A DNA stretch of 54,277 nucleotides from an uncultured bacterium. GTDB taxonomy: Bacteria > Nitrospirota > Thermodesulfovibrionia > Thermodesulfovibrionales > Thermodesulfovibrionaceae. Each line of letters starts with the position of its first letter. The first letter of the stretch is position 1. The translations under genes and the position numbers were made by a program. The notes beneath the pieces were generated by a model. The model searched no databases. It worked only from the letters and a program-made list of their open reading frames with translations, and was not told the DNA's origin. Shown here piece after piece: positions 32,922 to 40,562 of the stretch. The stretch spans positions 1 to 54,277 of the forward strand of contig CALLBR010000008.1 in NCBI GenBank assembly GCA_937998865.1, in the 5' to 3' direction.

Positions 32922-32955
32922 TTTTTTGAACATTTTATAAGGATAACATTACTAA
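32922..32955 (+). promoter_or_regulatory. ECF-type promoter motif P1 (at the sigma gene)
   Basis: TTTTTTGAAC (32922-32931), 18 bases, then TACTAA (32950-32955). It shares the layout of P2 and P3. GAAC-N18-hexamer is the spacing of RpoE-type promoters (GGAACTT-N15/16-GTCTAA). The -10 overlaps the annotated ATG of the sigma gene, so a transcript from P1 would begin just inside the ORF; its use for full-length sigma is therefore uncertain. Confidence 0.5.
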
Positions 32956-33503
32956 TGGATGAAGAACAGAAACTGATAAAACAAATTTCAAAAGGTGATG
33001 AAGAGGCTTTTAGGAGGCTTTATGATTTCACATCAAGGAGTGTTTATCAATACATATACAGTTTTGTTAACAATCATGAAACAGTAGAGGATCTGATGAT
33101 TGAAACCTATATGCAAGTATGGTTGTCCGCTAAAAGATTTAGAGGAGACTCAAAAGTTTTAACTTGGATTTTTGGAATTGCTCGGAATTTAACAATGAAT
33201 GAAATAAAAAAGAAAGAGTATAGATATAGTGAATTAACAAATTTAGAAAGTCAAAAAGCTGAACAATTTAAATTAATATCAAAAAACGAGAGTGATTATC
33301 TCATAACAATGGCATTGAAAAAACTTTCAATAAAACACAGAGAAATTTTAGATTTGCTATTCATCCATGAATTAACCTATGAAGAAGTGGCAAAAATACT
33401 GAATATTCCTTTAAATACAGTGAAAACAAGAATTTTTTATGCAAAGGAAAAGTTAAGAGAAATTCTTGAGAATATGGGGGTCAATAAAGATGCCTTTTTC
33501 TAA
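32955..33503 (+). CDS. ECF-family RNA polymerase sigma factor
   Basis: The 182-residue protein has region 2 (EEAFRRLYDFTSRSVYQYIYSF, ETVEDLMIETYMQVWLSAKRFRGDSKVLTWIFGIARNLTMNEIKK) and region 4 (LSIKHREILDLLFIHELTYEEVAKILNIPLNTVKTRIFYAKEKLREIL), with no region 1 or 3. It directs RNA polymerase to a dedicated promoter set. A weak AAGGA lies 12 bases before the ATG. It overlaps the anti-sigma gene by 14 bases. The likely regulon is the flanking set of exported proteins, since three matching promoter motifs lie only here. Confidence 0.95.
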   Translation: MDEEQKLIKQISKGDEEAFRRLYDFTSRSVYQYIYSFVNNHETVEDLMIETYMQVWLSAKRFRGDSKVLTWIFGIARNLTMNEIKKKEYRYSELTNLESQKAEQFKLISKNESDYLITMALKKLSIKHREILDLLFIHELTYEEVAKILNIPLNTVKTRIFYAKEKLREILENMGVNKDAFF

Positions 33504-34098
33504 AAGATTGGAAGAGATTAAGGTAATTTTGCCTTTATATTCTAAAAGATTAATTGAAAAGGAGAAAGTTAAAGAAATTGAAAAAATATTACAATCTGAA
33601 CCAGCCCTTCAAGAAGAATTGAAATTTTGGGATACTGTAAAAAAAGGCTATGAAAAAATAAAGAGTGATTTGCCAGAACCTTCTTACCACATATACCAAA
33701 AAATAATCAGAAGAATTGAAGGCAAGGAGAGGATCCAAAACAAACTATGGAATTTTATAAGCTTGAAGCCAAAATTTTCTTTTGGCTTTATTATGTTCCA
33801 ATTTTTGGTTATAATTGTCATGTTTTTTTATATCTTAAATTTAAAATATGGCTATCAAACCCTCTCTACCACAGATATTAGGGCTGAGACATCTTATGTA
33901 ATCAATGTAGTCTTTAAAGAGAATGCCAAGGAAAGTGATATTAGAGAACTTTTAACAAAAATTGATGGAAGAATAGTTGATGGTCCTTATAGAACAGGTC
34001 TATATGTAGTTGGAATAAAAGACAAAGAAAAAAAGGATCAGATTTTAGATACATTAAGACAAAGTAATATTATTGTGTTTGCTGAACCTGCCAAATAA
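33490..34098 (+). CDS. Membrane anti-sigma factor with prodomain-like periplasmic tail
   Basis: The 202-residue protein has a cytoplasmic helical part (about 1-90, without the zinc HxxxCxxC motif), one membrane helix (about 98-117) and a periplasmic domain (about 135-202). The tail reads INVVFKEN...DIRELLTKIDGRIVDG...TGLYVVGIKD...ILDTLRQSNIIVFAEP, the pattern of subtilase prodomains (I9/fervidolysin type) and similar to residues 361-434 of the S8 protease encoded at 37.8 kb. I start at ATG 33490 with GGGGGT upstream, not TTG 33466. The anti-sigma role is inferred from position and topology. Confidence 0.75.
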   Translation: MPFSKRLEEIKVILPLYSKRLIEKEKVKEIEKILQSEPALQEELKFWDTVKKGYEKIKSDLPEPSYHIYQKIIRRIEGKERIQNKLWNFISLKPKFSFGFIMFQFLVIIVMFFYILNLKYGYQTLSTTDIRAETSYVINVVFKENAKESDIRELLTKIDGRIVDGPYRTGLYVVGIKDKEKKDQILDTLRQSNIIVFAEPAK

Positions 34099-34109
34099 AT
34101 TTCCAAAAA

Positions 34110-34143
34110 TTTTTTGAACAAAATTCTATTTTAAATTGACTAA
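34110..34143 (+). promoter_or_regulatory. ECF-type promoter motif P2 (exported-protein operon)
   Basis: TTTTTTGAAC (34110-34119), 18 bases, then GACTAA (34138-34143). A transcript would start near 34150, with GGAGG at 34159-34163 and ATG at 34169, a well-formed promoter and leader. Confidence 0.65.
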
Positions 34144-34168
34144 TTAAAAAAAAATATTGGAGGAACAG

Positions 34169-35098
34169 ATGAGAAAAAATTTTGCTTTTATTTCTATGAG
34201 AGTTTTTGTAATTTTCCTGTCTTTTCTTTTTGCTTCTTTTGCTAATGCTGAAAGTGGACCCATGACTCATAAGCCTAAAGGAGAAGCACCACCAACAAAA
34301 GTGGATCAGATGCGAGAATTGTTGCCTGATTTAGTTGTTTCAGAGATTTTTGAAGATAGCGCAGGCAATATCATAGTTAAGATAAGAAATATCGGAAGGG
34401 GATACATAAACGAATCAGCTTATGTAAGCCCTGATAAATATGCTTTAATTTTATTAGAGATTAATAAAAATGGACAAAAAATTCCTCTTGCCACAATTGA
34501 TTCTTCCAAAGCATTATGCCGTCCCGGCGGAGAGGTAATATGGAATACAGGTAAAAAAACAGAGGGAAATAGGACAGAAGTTATTGTTAGGCTTGATATT
34601 ACGAATGTAATTAATGAGTCAGCGGAATCGAACAATCAATTAAGTCGGATTTTTGAAAAACTCGGAATGGTAGGGATTGACCTTGTCATCGTTGATTTAA
34701 AAAAGAATAGCAATGAATATTCTTATTATGCCCAAATCCAGAACAAGGGCAACAGGAGTTTCAATGGAACGATTCATTTTGAAGTATGGTTTAAGGATTA
34801 TGCTCATGGTAATACCTGGAAAAGAGTTCAACCACCATATGTTTCGCTGATAAATTCTAATAATGTTTTTGATAGTAAACTTGAAATACCGGCGATGGTG
34901 ATAACTTGTAGAAATGTGTCAATTCCTCCTCATGAAATTTTTAGCACGAATGCTATAAGTCCATGTGGTGTAAACTATCTTTTTAAAGTAACACCTCAGC
35001 CATCTGATATTGGAGTGGAGGTAAAAATAAAATTTTCTACTGATAGTGCAACTGAAAATAAGGCAAACAATGAATTTATCATGCATATAAGGAGATAA
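34169..35098 (+). CDS. Exported protein with two CARDB-like Ig domains
   Basis: The 309-residue protein has a clear Sec signal peptide (RKNFAFISMRVFVIFLSFLFASFANA, cut before ES). Residues about 47-160 follow the CARDB adhesion/Ig pattern: LPDLVVSEIFEDSAGNIIVKIRNIG...ESAESNNQ. A second weaker unit follows (IDLVIVDLKKNSNEYSYYAQIQNKGNRSFNG...ATENKANNEF). CARDB domains are found in surface and secreted proteins and usually mediate binding. GGAGG sets ATG 34169; the TTG at 34157 is rejected. It is the first gene after promoter P2. Confidence 0.8.
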   Translation: MRKNFAFISMRVFVIFLSFLFASFANAESGPMTHKPKGEAPPTKVDQMRELLPDLVVSEIFEDSAGNIIVKIRNIGRGYINESAYVSPDKYALILLEINKNGQKIPLATIDSSKALCRPGGEVIWNTGKKTEGNRTEVIVRLDITNVINESAESNNQLSRIFEKLGMVGIDLVIVDLKKNSNEYSYYAQIQNKGNRSFNGTIHFEVWFKDYAHGNTWKRVQPPYVSLINSNNVFDSKLEIPAMVITCRNVSIPPHEIFSTNAISPCGVNYLFKVTPQPSDIGVEVKIKFSTDSATENKANNEFIMHIRR

Positions 35099-35120
35099 CC
35101 ATATTAAATGGGGATTTAAG

Positions 35121-35663
35121 ATGGAGGGATTGAGGTTTTTATTAATTTCAATTTATTTTCTTTGTTTTATAGCCTCAGCATATTGTCAGACTGATAGAAT
35201 TCAGAGTCCTAAATTTCAACCTCACTATACTACTTCTCAAAATCCTCCTGTATCATCCAATTCTCAACCAGAAGATTTAAGAGGTAGTAAACCAGCCTTA
35301 CAAAGTAGCTTAAATATAATTAACTTTTCAACTTCATCAAATACTATAAATTATGGAGATGAGGTTATTCTTAGATGGACAATAAAGGGGTATAATGTTT
35401 CAAATTTAAGACTTGAAATAAAACCAGATGTTGGCATAATTCCTCTTTCACGGACAGACTATAGAAATGAAAACTTTAAGATTGAAGGTTCTAAAACAAT
35501 AAAATCCTTTAAAAGTGATACATATACATTGCAAATAATAGCTTCAGAGCCAGTGAAATTAGATTTAGATAAATATGGTAGCCCTCTCCAAAGTATGTTA
35601 CAAAAAATTAAGGTGGCCAGCATAAATGTAGAGAAACCAAAAATAGAGAATATGAAGCCTTAG
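35121..35663 (+). CDS. Exported Ig-like protein, probably truncated
   Basis: The 180-residue protein has a signal peptide (LRFLLISIYFLCFIASAYC) and a Ser/Pro/Gln-rich linker to about residue 65. One beta-sandwich-like segment follows (IINFSTSSNTINYGDEVILRWTIKGYNVSNLRLEIKP). The frame ends at a TAG just where a CARDB-like sequence continues in another frame, so it is probably the front part of a longer disrupted gene. It lies in the P2 transcript, 22 bases after the preceding stop. Exact function is not recognised. Confidence 0.7.
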   Translation: MEGLRFLLISIYFLCFIASAYCQTDRIQSPKFQPHYTTSQNPPVSSNSQPEDLRGSKPALQSSLNIINFSTSSNTINYGDEVILRWTIKGYNVSNLRLEIKPDVGIIPLSRTDYRNENFKIEGSKTIKSFKSDTYTLQIIASEPVKLDLDKYGSPLQSMLQKIKVASINVEKPKIENMKP

Positions 35664-35792
35664 TTGATAAGGAAACAATGAAGATAAAATTTATAGTTAA
35701 AAATATTGGAGCTGGAGACTTTCTATCAAGTCCAAATAGTAGATGTAAAGACTGAGGGCGATAACATTTTGATTGAATATTTGCCTAAATAA
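35648..35792 (+). pseudogene. Decayed CARDB-like fragment, two frames
   Basis: From 35648 one frame reads YEALVDKETMKIKFIVKNIG and continues to GAGDFLSSPNSR before a TGA at 35753. A second frame then reads QIVDVKTEGDNILIEYLPK and stops at 35792. KIKFIVKNIGAGDFLSSPN resembles KVRITGVVKNIGMESYISGPN in the CARDB protein at 41 kb. The pieces appear to be the shortened, frameshifted tail of the gene at 35121. Confidence 0.6.
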
Positions 35793-35832
35793 ATATATAA
35801 TTAGTAGGTTGTCCAAGGTATAAATGGTAATT

Positions 35833-35897
35833 GGAAAACCATTTGTGCTCAAAGATAACCAAAAAAAATTAAGGAGGATGAGCGCAAATGGTTTTCC
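35833..35897 (+). promoter_or_regulatory. Long RNA hairpin enclosing the RBS and start codon of the barrel gene
   Basis: Arm 1 is 35833-35851 and arm 2 is 35879-35897. They pair over 19 positions in RNA: 18 Watson-Crick pairs and one G-U wobble (35846 with 35884). The 27-base loop carries AAGGAGGA at 35871-35878. The ATG at 35888-35890 lies in the stem, paired with CAU at 35840-35842. A third copy, AAATGGT at 35822-35828, can pair with ACCATTT in arm 1 as an alternative 7-bp hairpin. No T-run follows, so a terminator is unlikely. Confidence 0.7.
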
Positions 35898-37813
35898 TTG
35901 TTCTTATGGGTTCTTTAATATTCATTTTTTTTCATGTTCCTTTATGCGCATCAGAGATGAAAGAAGAATTATTCAAAGTCCTATATCCTCAAGAAGGCTC
36001 AGAAATCATAGCAAAGAAGCCTAATATTAAAGTGGAGTTTGATGAAAAAGTGAAGAAAGAAACAATCGTTGTTTTATTTGACGGAACAGATGTTACTCAA
36101 TTAGTTAATTTCACTGAAAAGGGCTTTGAGTTAAAACCTTTTATGGTAGTTTCTCCGGGGTCTCATACAGTTAATATTTCAGCTCAAGATAAAGAAGGGA
36201 ATCAAATTGAAAAGACTCTATCCTTCCAAACTAGACACACAGAAGTATTCGATGAAGCCTTGTCAAATAATAATGCAACCATAATTTATGAGGGAGTTCT
36301 TAAAAAATCTGATAAACTTGGGAATCTTCCCTATTCAAAGATAGAGGGAAATTTAAGTTCTAATACGAGGTTAAAAAATCAGACATGGGAATTCACATTC
36401 AATACTAATCTTAGATATTTTGACCAGAATGAACCGCTTACACTACCGCAGAAAAAAGGATTGGATATAGTTAACTGGACATTTACTGGAAATTATACAA
36501 AAGATTTATTAAAGGTAAAAACAAACATTGGTGATATACAAATTACAGAATCACCTTATACTATTTCAGGGCTTAGTCGAAAAGGTGGCTTATTTAATAT
36601 TGAATACGATATATTTCAGCTTAATGCCTTTACAGTAAAAAGTGAAGCTCTTTATGGTTCAAGGGGCGGAACAGGAATTGAAACTTCCAACCATGACCAT
36701 ATAATGGGTTTATCAGCAGCCTTGAAACTTTTTGATAGAAAGATGGAGTTTAAAACCCTTTATGTAACGGGTGGTGAACCATCAACAGGATTTGGTATTT
36801 CTTCTTTTGGCGGCAATAGACAAGGAGATGTTCTAGGTTTTTTGGTAAATTCGTATTTTTTTGAAAACAAATTAAATACAGATTTTGAAATTGATTTTTC
36901 CAAATATGATCCTGATACATCTGACGAATTTGCTAAAGATAGTGATAAGGCATACAGGGCAAAGATTTATGGCGCAATAGACAAGTACAACTATGAAGCC
37001 ATGTATGAATATATAGGAAGAGATTATCAGATAGTGGGAAACACTATTCAAAAAGATCGTCAAGGATATAGTTTAAGAGGTGGAGCTAACTGGGATTGGC
37101 ATTCATTGAATTTATCTTTTTCAAGATATAACGATAATGTAAGAGGCGATGAAATTTTTCCGAGAATATATAATACTCAAATGGCTTTGGATTATTCCTT
37201 TAATAAAATTCCAGAGCTTCCTTTGGGATTAATTTATCAAAAATCAATTCAGAAAAGTACTAATGAACAAGAGGAAACTAACAAGATAAATATAGAAACC
37301 GATACCATATCAGGGAGGATTAACTATGTAAAGGATAAAATAAACATAGGCTTTACAACAGCTTATTCTTTCTTGAATGATAAAACAGCGGCTAATAATG
37401 ATACGACCTCTATAACCTATACTCTCACTCCTGTTTATACTGATGTCAACTTTTCTTTTAGTACAAGTTTTGCCCTTAATCAATCAAAAATAAAGCTTAC
37501 AGGTGCAAGAACTGATACTTATACTGCAAATCTTGATTTTAGAACCAAATTTTTGAATCAAAAAGCTACTTTTGATATAGCTGGAACTTATACAATTACA
37601 AAGGCAAATGATGGCTCAACCAATACAAGAAACTTAAATGGAGCAGTTCAACTTGCCTATGATCTTGCGAAATTTGTCAAGGACTATGCAAAACCTGTTA
37701 TAGCCTTAAAAGCAACTTATTCAAAAATAACCGATAAGATAAACGCCCTCTCAGATAGGGATGAATTTGTGCTTTATCTTGTATTTACCACAAATATGCC
37801 ATTTTCATTTTAA
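35888..37813 (+). CDS. Outer membrane beta-barrel protein with N-terminal Ig-like domain
   Basis: The 641-residue protein has a signal peptide (about 1-22, ending LCAS). An Ig-like domain lies at about 30-118 (PQEGSEIIAKKPNIKVEFDEKV...GSHTVNISAQDKEGNQ). The rest, about 500 residues, is rich in alternating aromatic/polar strands (WEFTFNTNLRYF, LNLSFSRYNDNV) and ends in Phe (NMPFSF), as barrels inserted by BamA do. No TonB plug is visible. Translation may be limited by the hairpin around its start. The S8 protease gene follows after 12 bases. Confidence 0.8.
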   Translation: MVFLVLMGSLIFIFFHVPLCASEMKEELFKVLYPQEGSEIIAKKPNIKVEFDEKVKKETIVVLFDGTDVTQLVNFTEKGFELKPFMVVSPGSHTVNISAQDKEGNQIEKTLSFQTRHTEVFDEALSNNNATIIYEGVLKKSDKLGNLPYSKIEGNLSSNTRLKNQTWEFTFNTNLRYFDQNEPLTLPQKKGLDIVNWTFTGNYTKDLLKVKTNIGDIQITESPYTISGLSRKGGLFNIEYDIFQLNAFTVKSEALYGSRGGTGIETSNHDHIMGLSAALKLFDRKMEFKTLYVTGGEPSTGFGISSFGGNRQGDVLGFLVNSYFFENKLNTDFEIDFSKYDPDTSDEFAKDSDKAYRAKIYGAIDKYNYEAMYEYIGRDYQIVGNTIQKDRQGYSLRGGANWDWHSLNLSFSRYNDNVRGDEIFPRIYNTQMALDYSFNKIPELPLGLIYQKSIQKSTNEQEETNKINIETDTISGRINYVKDKINIGFTTAYSFLNDKTAANNDTTSITYTLTPVYTDVNFSFSTSFALNQSKIKLTGARTDTYTANLDFRTKFLNQKATFDIAGTYTITKANDGSTNTRNLNGAVQLAYDLAKFVKDYAKPVIALKATYSKITDKINALSDRDEFVLYLVFTTNMPFSF

Positions 37814-37825
37814 GGAGGAGTATAC

Positions 37826-39931
37826 ATGAGAAGAAGCATTTTTCTAATTATAGTTGTTTCATTAATGTTTTTTCAGGCAATATCTTATGCAGGAGTGACA
37901 GTTACGGCAAGTAAGACGAATATACCTCGTGGTCAAACAAACACAGTCACATTAAATTACAAATTAACAAATCCTTATAATCCTTCATGTTCTGCAAAGT
38001 CAAATTTAGGGGAATTTGTGATTGGAAATACTATAATTGGCACTGTTCAAAAAACAATCACTATAAATGTAGCAGGCAATAATGCCACAGCAGTTGAAGT
38101 TTTAAATATACCCTTAAGCGTTACTGAAAGAGCAATAAAAATGAGGGAAAACAAAATAGAATTTAGAAGAAATTTTTTAGTTCTAAACTGCTCTTCCACA
38201 TATTACCAATATTACCAATTAGTCTCCTTAATTTTTTACATTACAACAGAGGCAGCTGCTGAGTTTGATATAAAAAGAATAGAGCTTTATTTTGAAAATG
38301 GCCGTGCTGAGATTACTGTTCCAAAGAATTATAAAGGACTTAAAGCTTTTGCAGATATTAAATTTACAGGTTCTGGACTTCTTAGAGGTTATTGGGAAGT
38401 GGATGGGAGAATACTTTCTCATGTAAATCAGCATATAACCTATGGGAAAACAACTACTTTTCAAACACCTGATATTCCACCTCTTCCTACCTTTGAAACT
38501 GGAACACACATACTTAGATTTGTCGTTACAAATCCATCTGTTGAAATTCCTTTACCTTCTGCCATTTATTTTGTAAGATCAGAGGAAGTAAAAGAATTTT
38601 TGAAGATAAACCTTTTATCTCCTCAAAATAATTCAGAATTTGACTATGCTTCTCAGAAATTCACCTGGGAAAATCTTGATGGAACAATGATGTATCTGGT
38701 TCAATTTTTTGAAAACAGAGATTCCAAGCCTATTTTTTCTGCCTATACCAAGGAATCGTATTATAATTTGCCAGATTCTATTGTGAAGAAAATTTTTCAA
38801 CAGGGAAAAACTTATTACTGGAGAGTAATAGGTTTTGATGAAAAAAACAATTCAGTAGGTGAAAGCGATATTTGGAAGTTTTCTTTTAGGTCCCAAAGTT
38901 TCATTCCGGGACATATCATTATAGCTCTTTCAACAACTGACTTTTCTAAGGATTTTATTGAAAGATTAAAGGTCAAATATGGATTGGAGATTATTGAATT
39001 TTTCAATTTAGAGACTTTAAACACAGTGGTTGTTTTATTTAAGTGTAATGAAAACATCTTAGATAAGATAGAACTGATAAAATCAGAAGAAAAAATTATT
39101 CTTGCACAACCTAATTTTATATTTCAAACCCTTTCAGAACCATTGAGAAAATTTCAGTACGCCCTTGACATTATGAAGATTGAAAAAATACATAACCTTT
39201 ATAAAGGTAAAGGTGTTAAGGTGGCAGTCATTGATACAGGTGTGGATTATGAACACAGGGATTTGAAGGAAAGGGTTGTCCTTTCAAAAAATTTTGTCAG
39301 AGCAGAAACCTATAAAAAAGAGATTCACGGAACAGCTGTGGCAGGTGTAATTGGAGCAAGTATTAATGGTTTTGGAATAGCAGGAGTTGCTCCAGAGGCT
39401 AAAATTTATTCTCTGCGGGCATGTACTCAGATAGGTGATACAGCTAAGGGGCTATGTGAGAGTTTTAATATTCTAAAAGCACTGGATGAGGCAATTAAAA
39501 GAAATATAAGAGTTATCAATATGAGCTTTGGCTCATTAAATTATGATAGACTTTTAAGTGCGCTAATTGACAAAGCAGTGCAGAGGGAGATTTTTATAGT
39601 TGTGCCTTTATCAATCATCGGAAATTCAATCACTTTTCCTGCCTCCCATCCAGATGTAATTTCAGTGGGAGGAATGGATGAAAAGGAAAACCCCTATCCT
39701 TCAAAGGATATTGTTAATAAAGCAAAAGTTTTAGCTCCTGCTGACAAAATAATTACCACTTTTCCAGATAACAGACACAATTTCATTTCAGGAACTTCAT
39801 TGTCTTCTGCTTATGTGAGTGGACTTTTAGCATTATACATTCAAATGGGTGATAAAAGAAATCTCCCATCCTTCAAAGGTGATTTATATAAATGGGAAAA
39901 GGAGATTTTTGGAATATTCCCAGGGGAGTAA
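37826..39931 (+). CDS. Exported subtilisin-like (S8) serine protease
   Basis: The 701-residue preproprotein has a signal peptide (1-22), a beta-rich region (23-255) and a fibronectin-like domain (about 260-355, ending TYYWRVIGFDEKNNSVGESDIWKF). A prodomain-like segment follows (361-434, PGHIIIAL...AQPNF), then the catalytic domain with D470 (VIDTGVD), H501 (HGTAVAG), oxyanion N600 and S658 (SGTSLSS). All catalytic residues are present. The large N-terminal region is unusual for a simple secreted subtilase and may anchor it or recognise substrate. RBS AAGGAGGAG precedes ATG. Confidence 0.9.
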   Translation: MRRSIFLIIVVSLMFFQAISYAGVTVTASKTNIPRGQTNTVTLNYKLTNPYNPSCSAKSNLGEFVIGNTIIGTVQKTITINVAGNNATAVEVLNIPLSVTERAIKMRENKIEFRRNFLVLNCSSTYYQYYQLVSLIFYITTEAAAEFDIKRIELYFENGRAEITVPKNYKGLKAFADIKFTGSGLLRGYWEVDGRILSHVNQHITYGKTTTFQTPDIPPLPTFETGTHILRFVVTNPSVEIPLPSAIYFVRSEEVKEFLKINLLSPQNNSEFDYASQKFTWENLDGTMMYLVQFFENRDSKPIFSAYTKESYYNLPDSIVKKIFQQGKTYYWRVIGFDEKNNSVGESDIWKFSFRSQSFIPGHIIIALSTTDFSKDFIERLKVKYGLEIIEFFNLETLNTVVVLFKCNENILDKIELIKSEEKIILAQPNFIFQTLSEPLRKFQYALDIMKIEKIHNLYKGKGVKVAVIDTGVDYEHRDLKERVVLSKNFVRAETYKKEIHGTAVAGVIGASINGFGIAGVAPEAKIYSLRACTQIGDTAKGLCESFNILKALDEAIKRNIRVINMSFGSLNYDRLLSALIDKAVQREIFIVVPLSIIGNSITFPASHPDVISVGGMDEKENPYPSKDIVNKAKVLAPADKIITTFPDNRHNFISGTSLSSAYVSGLLALYIQMGDKRNLPSFKGDLYKWEKEIFGIFPGE

Positions 39932-40061: not shown

Positions 40062-40562
40062 TTGAGAGTAAAGTTATTTTTTTTGTGTGCTTCCTTACTG
40101 ATTGTTTTTGTCTTTGCAGCAGATACTAATGCTGATCCTTTAAAGAATCTTAAAAGACCAACTATTAATGAAAATCAACAAAATCAAAAATCTCCTACAG
40201 TACTTCCACCACAGGTTAATGAAAATATTCCTAAACAACAACCGCCGCCTACAGCACCCAATAGGGAATTTACCAATATTGACTTTGAGGGAATACTTCA
40301 CGCTAAGAGTCGGGAATTTACCAATATTGACTTTGAGGGAATACTTCATGCTAAGAGTCGGGAATTTATCAATATTGACTTTGAGGGAATACTTCATGCT
40401 AAGAGTCGAGAATTTATCAATATTGACTTTGAGGGAATACTTCACGCTAAGAGTCGGGAATTTATCAATATTGACTTTGAGGGAATACTTCACGCTAAGA
40501 GTCGGGAATTTATCAATATTGACTTTATAGGAGTAAAGATTCTTGATTTACAGAAAAATTAA
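40062..40562 (+). CDS. Exported tandem-repeat protein (16-residue repeats)
   Basis: The 166-residue protein begins with TTG, supported by GGAGGT at 40051-40056; no ATG fits. A signal peptide (about 1-25) is followed by an Asn/Gln/Pro-rich segment to residue 67, then five units of REF(T/I)NIDFEGILHAKS and a final REFINIDF that runs into IGVKILDLQKN. No family is recognised. The repeats alternate hydrophobic and charged residues and could form a beta-solenoid or amyloid-like stack, or be cut at the basic KSR junctions. It lies downstream of promoter P3. Confidence 0.75.
   Translation: MRVKLFFLCASLLIVFVFAADTNADPLKNLKRPTINENQQNQKSPTVLPPQVNENIPKQQPPPTAPNREFTNIDFEGILHAKSREFTNIDFEGILHAKSREFINIDFEGILHAKSREFINIDFEGILHAKSREFINIDFEGILHAKSREFINIDFIGVKILDLQKN
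40263..40526 (+). repeat. 48-bp tandem repeat, 5.5 copies
   Basis: Units start at 40263, 40311, 40359, 40407 and 40455, with a 24-base half unit at 40503-40526. Copies differ at only a few bases (ACC/ATC for Thr/Ile, CAC/CAT for His, AGG/CGG/CGA for Arg). Because 48 is divisible by 3, other frames are also open across the array; these are shadows, not genes. Confidence 0.97.

Follow-up and report, generated by a model that had tools for sequence, protein, structure and literature searches.

Comparative sequence evidence for a start-codon helix and a candidate two-fold translational brake in the leader of a predicted outer-membrane barrel gene in Thermodesulfovibrio

RNA thermometers of the start region, such as ROSE and fourU, rely on a leader hairpin that occludes initiation. 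In the MS2 maturation-gene leader, as outlined in PMC6733600, a transient fold permits translation before a stable closed fold is reached, and in the hok/aapA type I toxin mRNAs, by the same outline, metastable hairpins with a masked Shine-Dalgarno (SD) sequence keep translation off. The rpsO leader of E. coli, in the part of PMC3858243 that deals with it, forms a pseudoknot made of a hairpin and a loop that pairs to the start region.

The leader considered here precedes a predicted outer-membrane barrel gene in the window, that is, the whole stretch of 54,277 nucleotides that was analysed, from a genome of 1.75 Mb. With moderate confidence, we read its approximately 80 nucleotides as a cis-acting translational brake with two mutually exclusive predicted folds, namely a helix on the start codon (S) and a 5' hairpin (P1/P2). 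As in the MS2 maturation leader, a transient fold would precede a stable, start-blocking one and timing would control translation; unlike the MS2 leader as outlined, the stable fold here is a simple long hairpin on the start codon itself, the gene is a bacterial chromosomal one, and the kinetics are only inferred. With the hok/aapA mRNAs the leader would share a metastable 5'-terminal hairpin that excludes a more stable fold; so far as that outline goes, the locus differs from them in that neither an antisense RNA nor 3' processing is seen and the product is a predicted outer-membrane barrel. As in rpsO, P1 and S together would make a pseudoknot of the H type whose helices do not include the SD; unlike rpsO as described, the regulated gene is not a ribosomal-protein gene, and the hallmark of rpsO-type autoregulation, a ribosomal-protein product that binds its own leader, is not seen for this predicted barrel. 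The S helix is, moreover, much larger than that of rpsO. The hairpin would occlude the start as those of ROSE and fourU do, and unlike them its stability keeps it from melting over the growth range, and it holds the SD in its loop and not in its stem. The features are collected in Table 1.

Table 1. Coordinates of the barrel leader, its predicted elements and the flanking genes (positions in the window)
Feature	Position	Strand	Basis
Upstream-gene remnant: 180-aa ORF, then frameshifted tail bearing the promoter	35121..35790	+	comparison with G009
Predicted sigma-70 promoter, TTGAAT-17 nt-TATAAT	35773..35801	+	10/12 consensus positions; start predicted about 35807-35808
P1 5' strand (GGUUGUC), predicted mRNA 5' end	35807..35813	+	minimum-energy fold; 2/7 pairs doubly changed
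P2 5' strand: decoy, repeats AAATGGT of the start region, rivals for arm 1	35817..35828	+	minimum-energy fold
Possible upstream ORF from decoy AUG, 66 aa, overlapping the barrel gene out of frame	35824..36024	+	ORF listing
Arm 1 of S (anti-start arm)	35833..35851	+	sequence, covariation, mutation trials
P2 3' strand, within arm 1	35838..35849	+	minimum-energy fold, alignment
P1 3' strand (GAUAACC)	35854..35860	+	minimum-energy fold; covariation as for P1 5' strand
Shine-Dalgarno AAGGAGGA, in 27-nt S loop	35871..35878	+	sequence
Arm 2 of S: spacer, start codon, first codons	35879..35897	+	sequence, covariation
Barrel gene, 641 aa: signal-like N terminus, CopC-like region, predicted outer-membrane beta-barrel	35888..37813	+	ORF, Pfam, model

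The CopC-like region of the product scores just over the Pfam cut-off, and the structure model of the barrel is of low confidence (pLDDT 62.9); the 50 PDB matches listed have low TM-scores and, a few uninformative titles aside, bear the titles of outer-membrane barrel proteins or of complexes containing one. The gene belongs to a variable block (32955-39931) that comprises an ECF sigma factor, a likely anti-sigma factor, a CARDB-like gene, p562, the barrel gene and an S8 protease, and in the stretches of G003, G012, G002 and G013 that were read, the corresponding site showed none of the block genes, the G003 stretch stopping at a contig end. Both the anti-sigma-like protein (33466-34095) and the S8 protease (37826-39931) give weak matches, below the Pfam cut-off, to the Fervidolysin N-terminal prodomain, which hints at a domain common to the two. 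Further along, at 40264-40526, a 48-bp unit stands in 5.5 tandem copies (97% match), which give a small, secreted-looking protein its repeats of ~16 residues (EFTNIDFEGILHAKSR-like).

In the window, arm 1 (GGAAAACCATTTGTGCTCA) can pair with arm 2 (TGAGCGCAAATGGTTTTCC) over 19 positions, as 18 Watson-Crick pairs and one U-G (35846/35884), across a loop at 35852-35878; the barrel ATG (35888-35890) lies within the stem, and the first-pass annotation, which had described this pairing with its single G-U, the SD in the loop and the AUG in the stem, was exact on each point. The pairing is far beyond chance. The duplex of leader and start region reaches -32.3 kcal/mol, where shuffled leaders average -11.9, and ranks first among the 48 gene starts in the window, with the runner-up at -16.4 kcal/mol. 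When one rule was applied to 111 predicted starts from the window and eight neighbouring loci, with genes chosen mechanically from ORFs and not annotated, the three barrel genes that carry S took the first three ranks (-32.3, -27.8 and -27.8), the next start following at -16.6 kcal/mol. Shuffles of a carrier's own leader were as good in 0/1000 trials for the window's genome (G000) and for G009 and in 1/1000 for G005. Moreover, the pattern AACCATTTG-N(18-48)-CAAATGGTT occurs in 2 of the 16 genus genomes, and there at the barrel-gene locus only.

The barrel gene itself is present in five of these 16 genomes (G000, G009, G004, G005 and G008); a wider search of genome contigs gave eight loci, among which L012-L015 match G009, G004, G005 and G008, and a search of viral contigs gave none. 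A second DNA match in the window's genome (L002) lies inside another gene and was taken as chance. Helix S is found in three of the five (G000, G009 and G005) and is absent from G004, whose gene starts with TTG, and from G008, the duplexes of these two being no better than chance (750/1000 and 201/1000 shuffles as good). The helix is thus not universal for the barrel gene. In the protein tree of the five, G008 is outermost, and the order of G004, G005 and the G000/G009 pair is not settled, so that S may have been lost or replaced in G004, or may have arisen after G008, and perhaps G004 too, branched off.

How the pairing was kept is best seen in G005, the most distant carrier compared with the window. 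Its arms are identical to those of G000 at 23/38 positions, 15 having changed, and the rest of the leader at 30/63. In the three-row alignment (A3), 93% of the 57 cells are paired, and both sides have changed in 5/19 pairs (35833/35897, 35834/35896, 35838/35892, 35847/35883 and 35849/35881), a covariation that stands on three distinct sequences only; controls in which the partner was slid by 1-3 columns give 0-2 doubly changed pairs. RNAalifold selects S unprompted. The unpaired cells in the A3 register number three in G005 and one in G009, and a bulged A allows the G005 helix to run on with no other breaks. When sequences were substituted at random to the same distance, a duplex at least as strong as that of G005 (-26.6) was obtained in 2/20000 trials and one at least as strong as that of G009 in 573/20000; counting pairs in place of energy is weaker (P 0.018 for G005 and 0.23 for G009). 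The covariation proposed as a check in the first-pass annotation thus comes out in favour of a pairing kept via compensatory change. As judged from these alignments, the arms of S have changed jointly since before the split of G000 and G005, and S is a real, conserved start-codon helix, which probably acts as a translational brake.

The leaders of the three carriers were made into a covariance model, which was run against the 16 genomes and recovered only those three at E < 1e-15; next came the window's inverted repeat read on its reverse strand (E 0.0056) and sites at chance level (E 0.14 and worse). Among the distant homologues L008-L010 and L016-L019, inspected by eye only, no similar leader was seen. 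Rfam 15 gave four weak matches, up to E 5, in the window stretch, none of them bacterial regulatory and none at gathering score, and for loci L003-L007 one weak unrelated match and no fitting family. The literature searched held no title or abstract opening on a leader of this genus, which does not prove absence from print.

The promoter scan is weak alone, with 3 sites found against 2.6 in shuffles, and few columns in the alignment of five leaders (A4) are as well conserved as those of the promoter block. With a predicted start near 35807, the leader would be about 80 nt long and would include both S arms; the transcript start between 35851 and 35879 that the first-pass annotation had named as fatal to its reading is not predicted. 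The promoter lies within the last codons of the upstream gene, which may be why those codons persist, out of frame, in the window.

From this predicted 5' end, the minimum-energy fold at 37 C is not S; it is a hairpin of P1 and P2 that uses arm 1. As the P2 3' strand lies inside arm 1, P2 and S are mutually exclusive, and the third element that had been suspected of rivalling for arm 1, AAATGGT at 35822-35828, proves to be part of the P2 5' strand, the hairpin having been only partly noticed. For P1 and S to coexist, the RNA would have to form an H-type pseudoknot, in which two bases of the window leader stay unpaired between arm 1 and the P1 3' strand. As far as the SD, the nascent leader is more structured than shuffles in the carriers (z -4.7 in G000, -3.6 in G009 and -2.9 in G005), with z +0.5 in G004. 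Doubly changed pairs between carriers number five in S, two in P1 and none in P2. Random substitution equals the P1 energy of G005 in 745/20000 trials (0.48 by pair counting), so that support for P1 is modest, and matches the energy of the whole G005 hairpin in 196/5000; for P2, which shows no compensatory changes and is weakened in G009 and G005, it is as good in 8272/20000. The G008 barrel leader (L015), for its part, has a strong 5' hairpin (z -5.3) without the anti-start helix; the 3'-strand motif AUGAUA of this hairpin recurs at the start codon, so the 5' strand could pair with either.

The balance between S and P1/P2 is close in the window leader at 37 C, and the value computed for the share of S depends on the ends folded (0.377, 0.25, 0.99, and 0.15-0.83 for 3' ends from 35905 to 36000). 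With heat, the S share climbs in G000, and up to 70 C it does not fall below 0.98 in G009 and G005; at 60-65 C the computed probability that leader and start codon are paired is 0.94-0.97 in G000 and 0.99 in G009 and G005, in keeping with the earlier proposal that the helix would limit initiation. The genus grows at 40-75 C and Thermodesulfovibrio sp. N1 at 45-74 C with an optimum of 65 C, by the growth data given in PMC5165239. In growing transcripts of G000, folded to equilibrium at each length and hence without kinetics, P1/P2 is present by 35862 and the shift to S falls around 35890-35894, at both 37 and 60 C. This equilibrium folding and the nascent z-scores describe a candidate bistable leader, with two exclusive folds of which P1/P2 is the earlier on nascent RNA. 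Forbidding S in the window leader leaves the SD largely bound to the first codons (unpaired 0.25-0.30); the alternative fold is thus not clearly an open one, which argues against a simple on/off reading.

These observations suggest how a brake with two folds might work. P1/P2, starting from the predicted transcript start, would take arm 1 and be complete at about 35862, before arm 2 of S exists; S would displace it once the start region emerges, and by computation would be dominant at growth temperature. A new transcript would then have a brief window for initiation, or would depend on a factor that holds P1/P2 or opens S, and the message would be largely shut after S forms. The SD in the S loop may give the 30S subunit a place to wait. 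A two-fold switch of this kind is plausible and supported only in part.

A plainer account is that S does no more than hold a costly membrane protein at a low level of translation, and that the 5' hairpin plays no part in switching. The support for S is far above that for P2, with its lack of compensatory change, and the dominance of S at 60-70 C in all three carriers suits a static brake well. The nascent hairpin, on the other hand, beats shuffles in each of the three, the whole hairpin is better kept in G005 than under random substitution, and a decoy AUGG faces the same arm in both G000 and G005. We regard this account as possible, at well below an even chance.

It has also to be asked whether ribosomes open the helix. 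The first-pass annotation had suggested coupling to translation of the upstream gene, and this is not supported by the gene's own structure: the window copy lacks about 970 bp relative to the intact gene of G009 (562 codons stop to stop), the ORF of the remnant stops at 35663, 225 nt before the barrel ATG, and the G009 gene stops about 100 nt upstream, before the leader. Neither in the window nor in G009 does an upstream stop lie in or beside the occluding helix. Alternatively, ribosomes that translate a short ORF from the decoy AUG could enter arm 1 and melt S, releasing the barrel start. All three carriers have the decoy AUG at the same aligned position and every ORF crosses arm 1, the ORF stops between P1 and the SD in G009 and G005, and AAGG precedes the AUG in G000 and G009. 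However, the peptides (66 aa in the window, 13 aa in G009 and 12 aa in G005) differ in sequence, so that the conserved short peptide of a leader-peptide attenuator is not found; the window ORF has no stop ahead of the barrel gene, and G005 has no SD at the decoy AUG. Coupling through a leader peptide is therefore unlikely.

Complementary arms can also be maintained by templated correction, without selection on RNA. An inverted repeat acting at the DNA level, through templated copying of the arms, as a protein site or as a cruciform, with no RNA role, could thus preserve the arms by correction alone. The departures from Watson-Crick pairing that still pair in S are, however, all G-U on the mRNA strand, with no A-C; this speaks modestly, as about five events are concerned, for a role in RNA and against a DNA-level repeat. 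In every carrier, moreover, the arms fall precisely on the start codon, and no terminator-like site was found. A purely DNA-level role appears quite unlikely, and an invertible switch was set aside because the loop orientation is identical in the three carriers.

An RNA thermometer, in which heat would open S and turn translation on, as the first-pass annotation had proposed, has the layout of start-region hairpins that occlude initiation and a thermophilic host in its favour, and is nonetheless very improbable, since the energy of S, -14.7 kcal/mol at 65 C, is still -9.7 at 75 C, the top of the genus range, so that heat does not open the helix; its share rises with temperature in G000 and holds up to 70 C in G009 and G005. 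Cold activation is conceivable for G000 only. For the two-fold brake, we think that control by a timer or by a factor in trans is likelier than control by temperature. It is a more doubtful proposition that Thermodesulfovibrio has here a new class of leader with a sensory or timing function, in which P1 would be a constant stem, arm 1 would swap between the start-mimicking decoy and the start site, and the choice between the hairpin (on) and the start-codon pseudoknot (off) would fall to a ligand, to a protein or to transcript age.

Finally, promoter, decoy, anti-start arm and target are contained in about 125 bases, small enough for testing whether a 5' hairpin sets a time limit on translation. 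If the proposed brake is true, it would be one on the start codon and not on the SD, kept by compensatory evolution in thermophiles, where RNA hairpins might seem too weak, and it would show how an envelope protein found in only five of the 16 genus genomes is held down.
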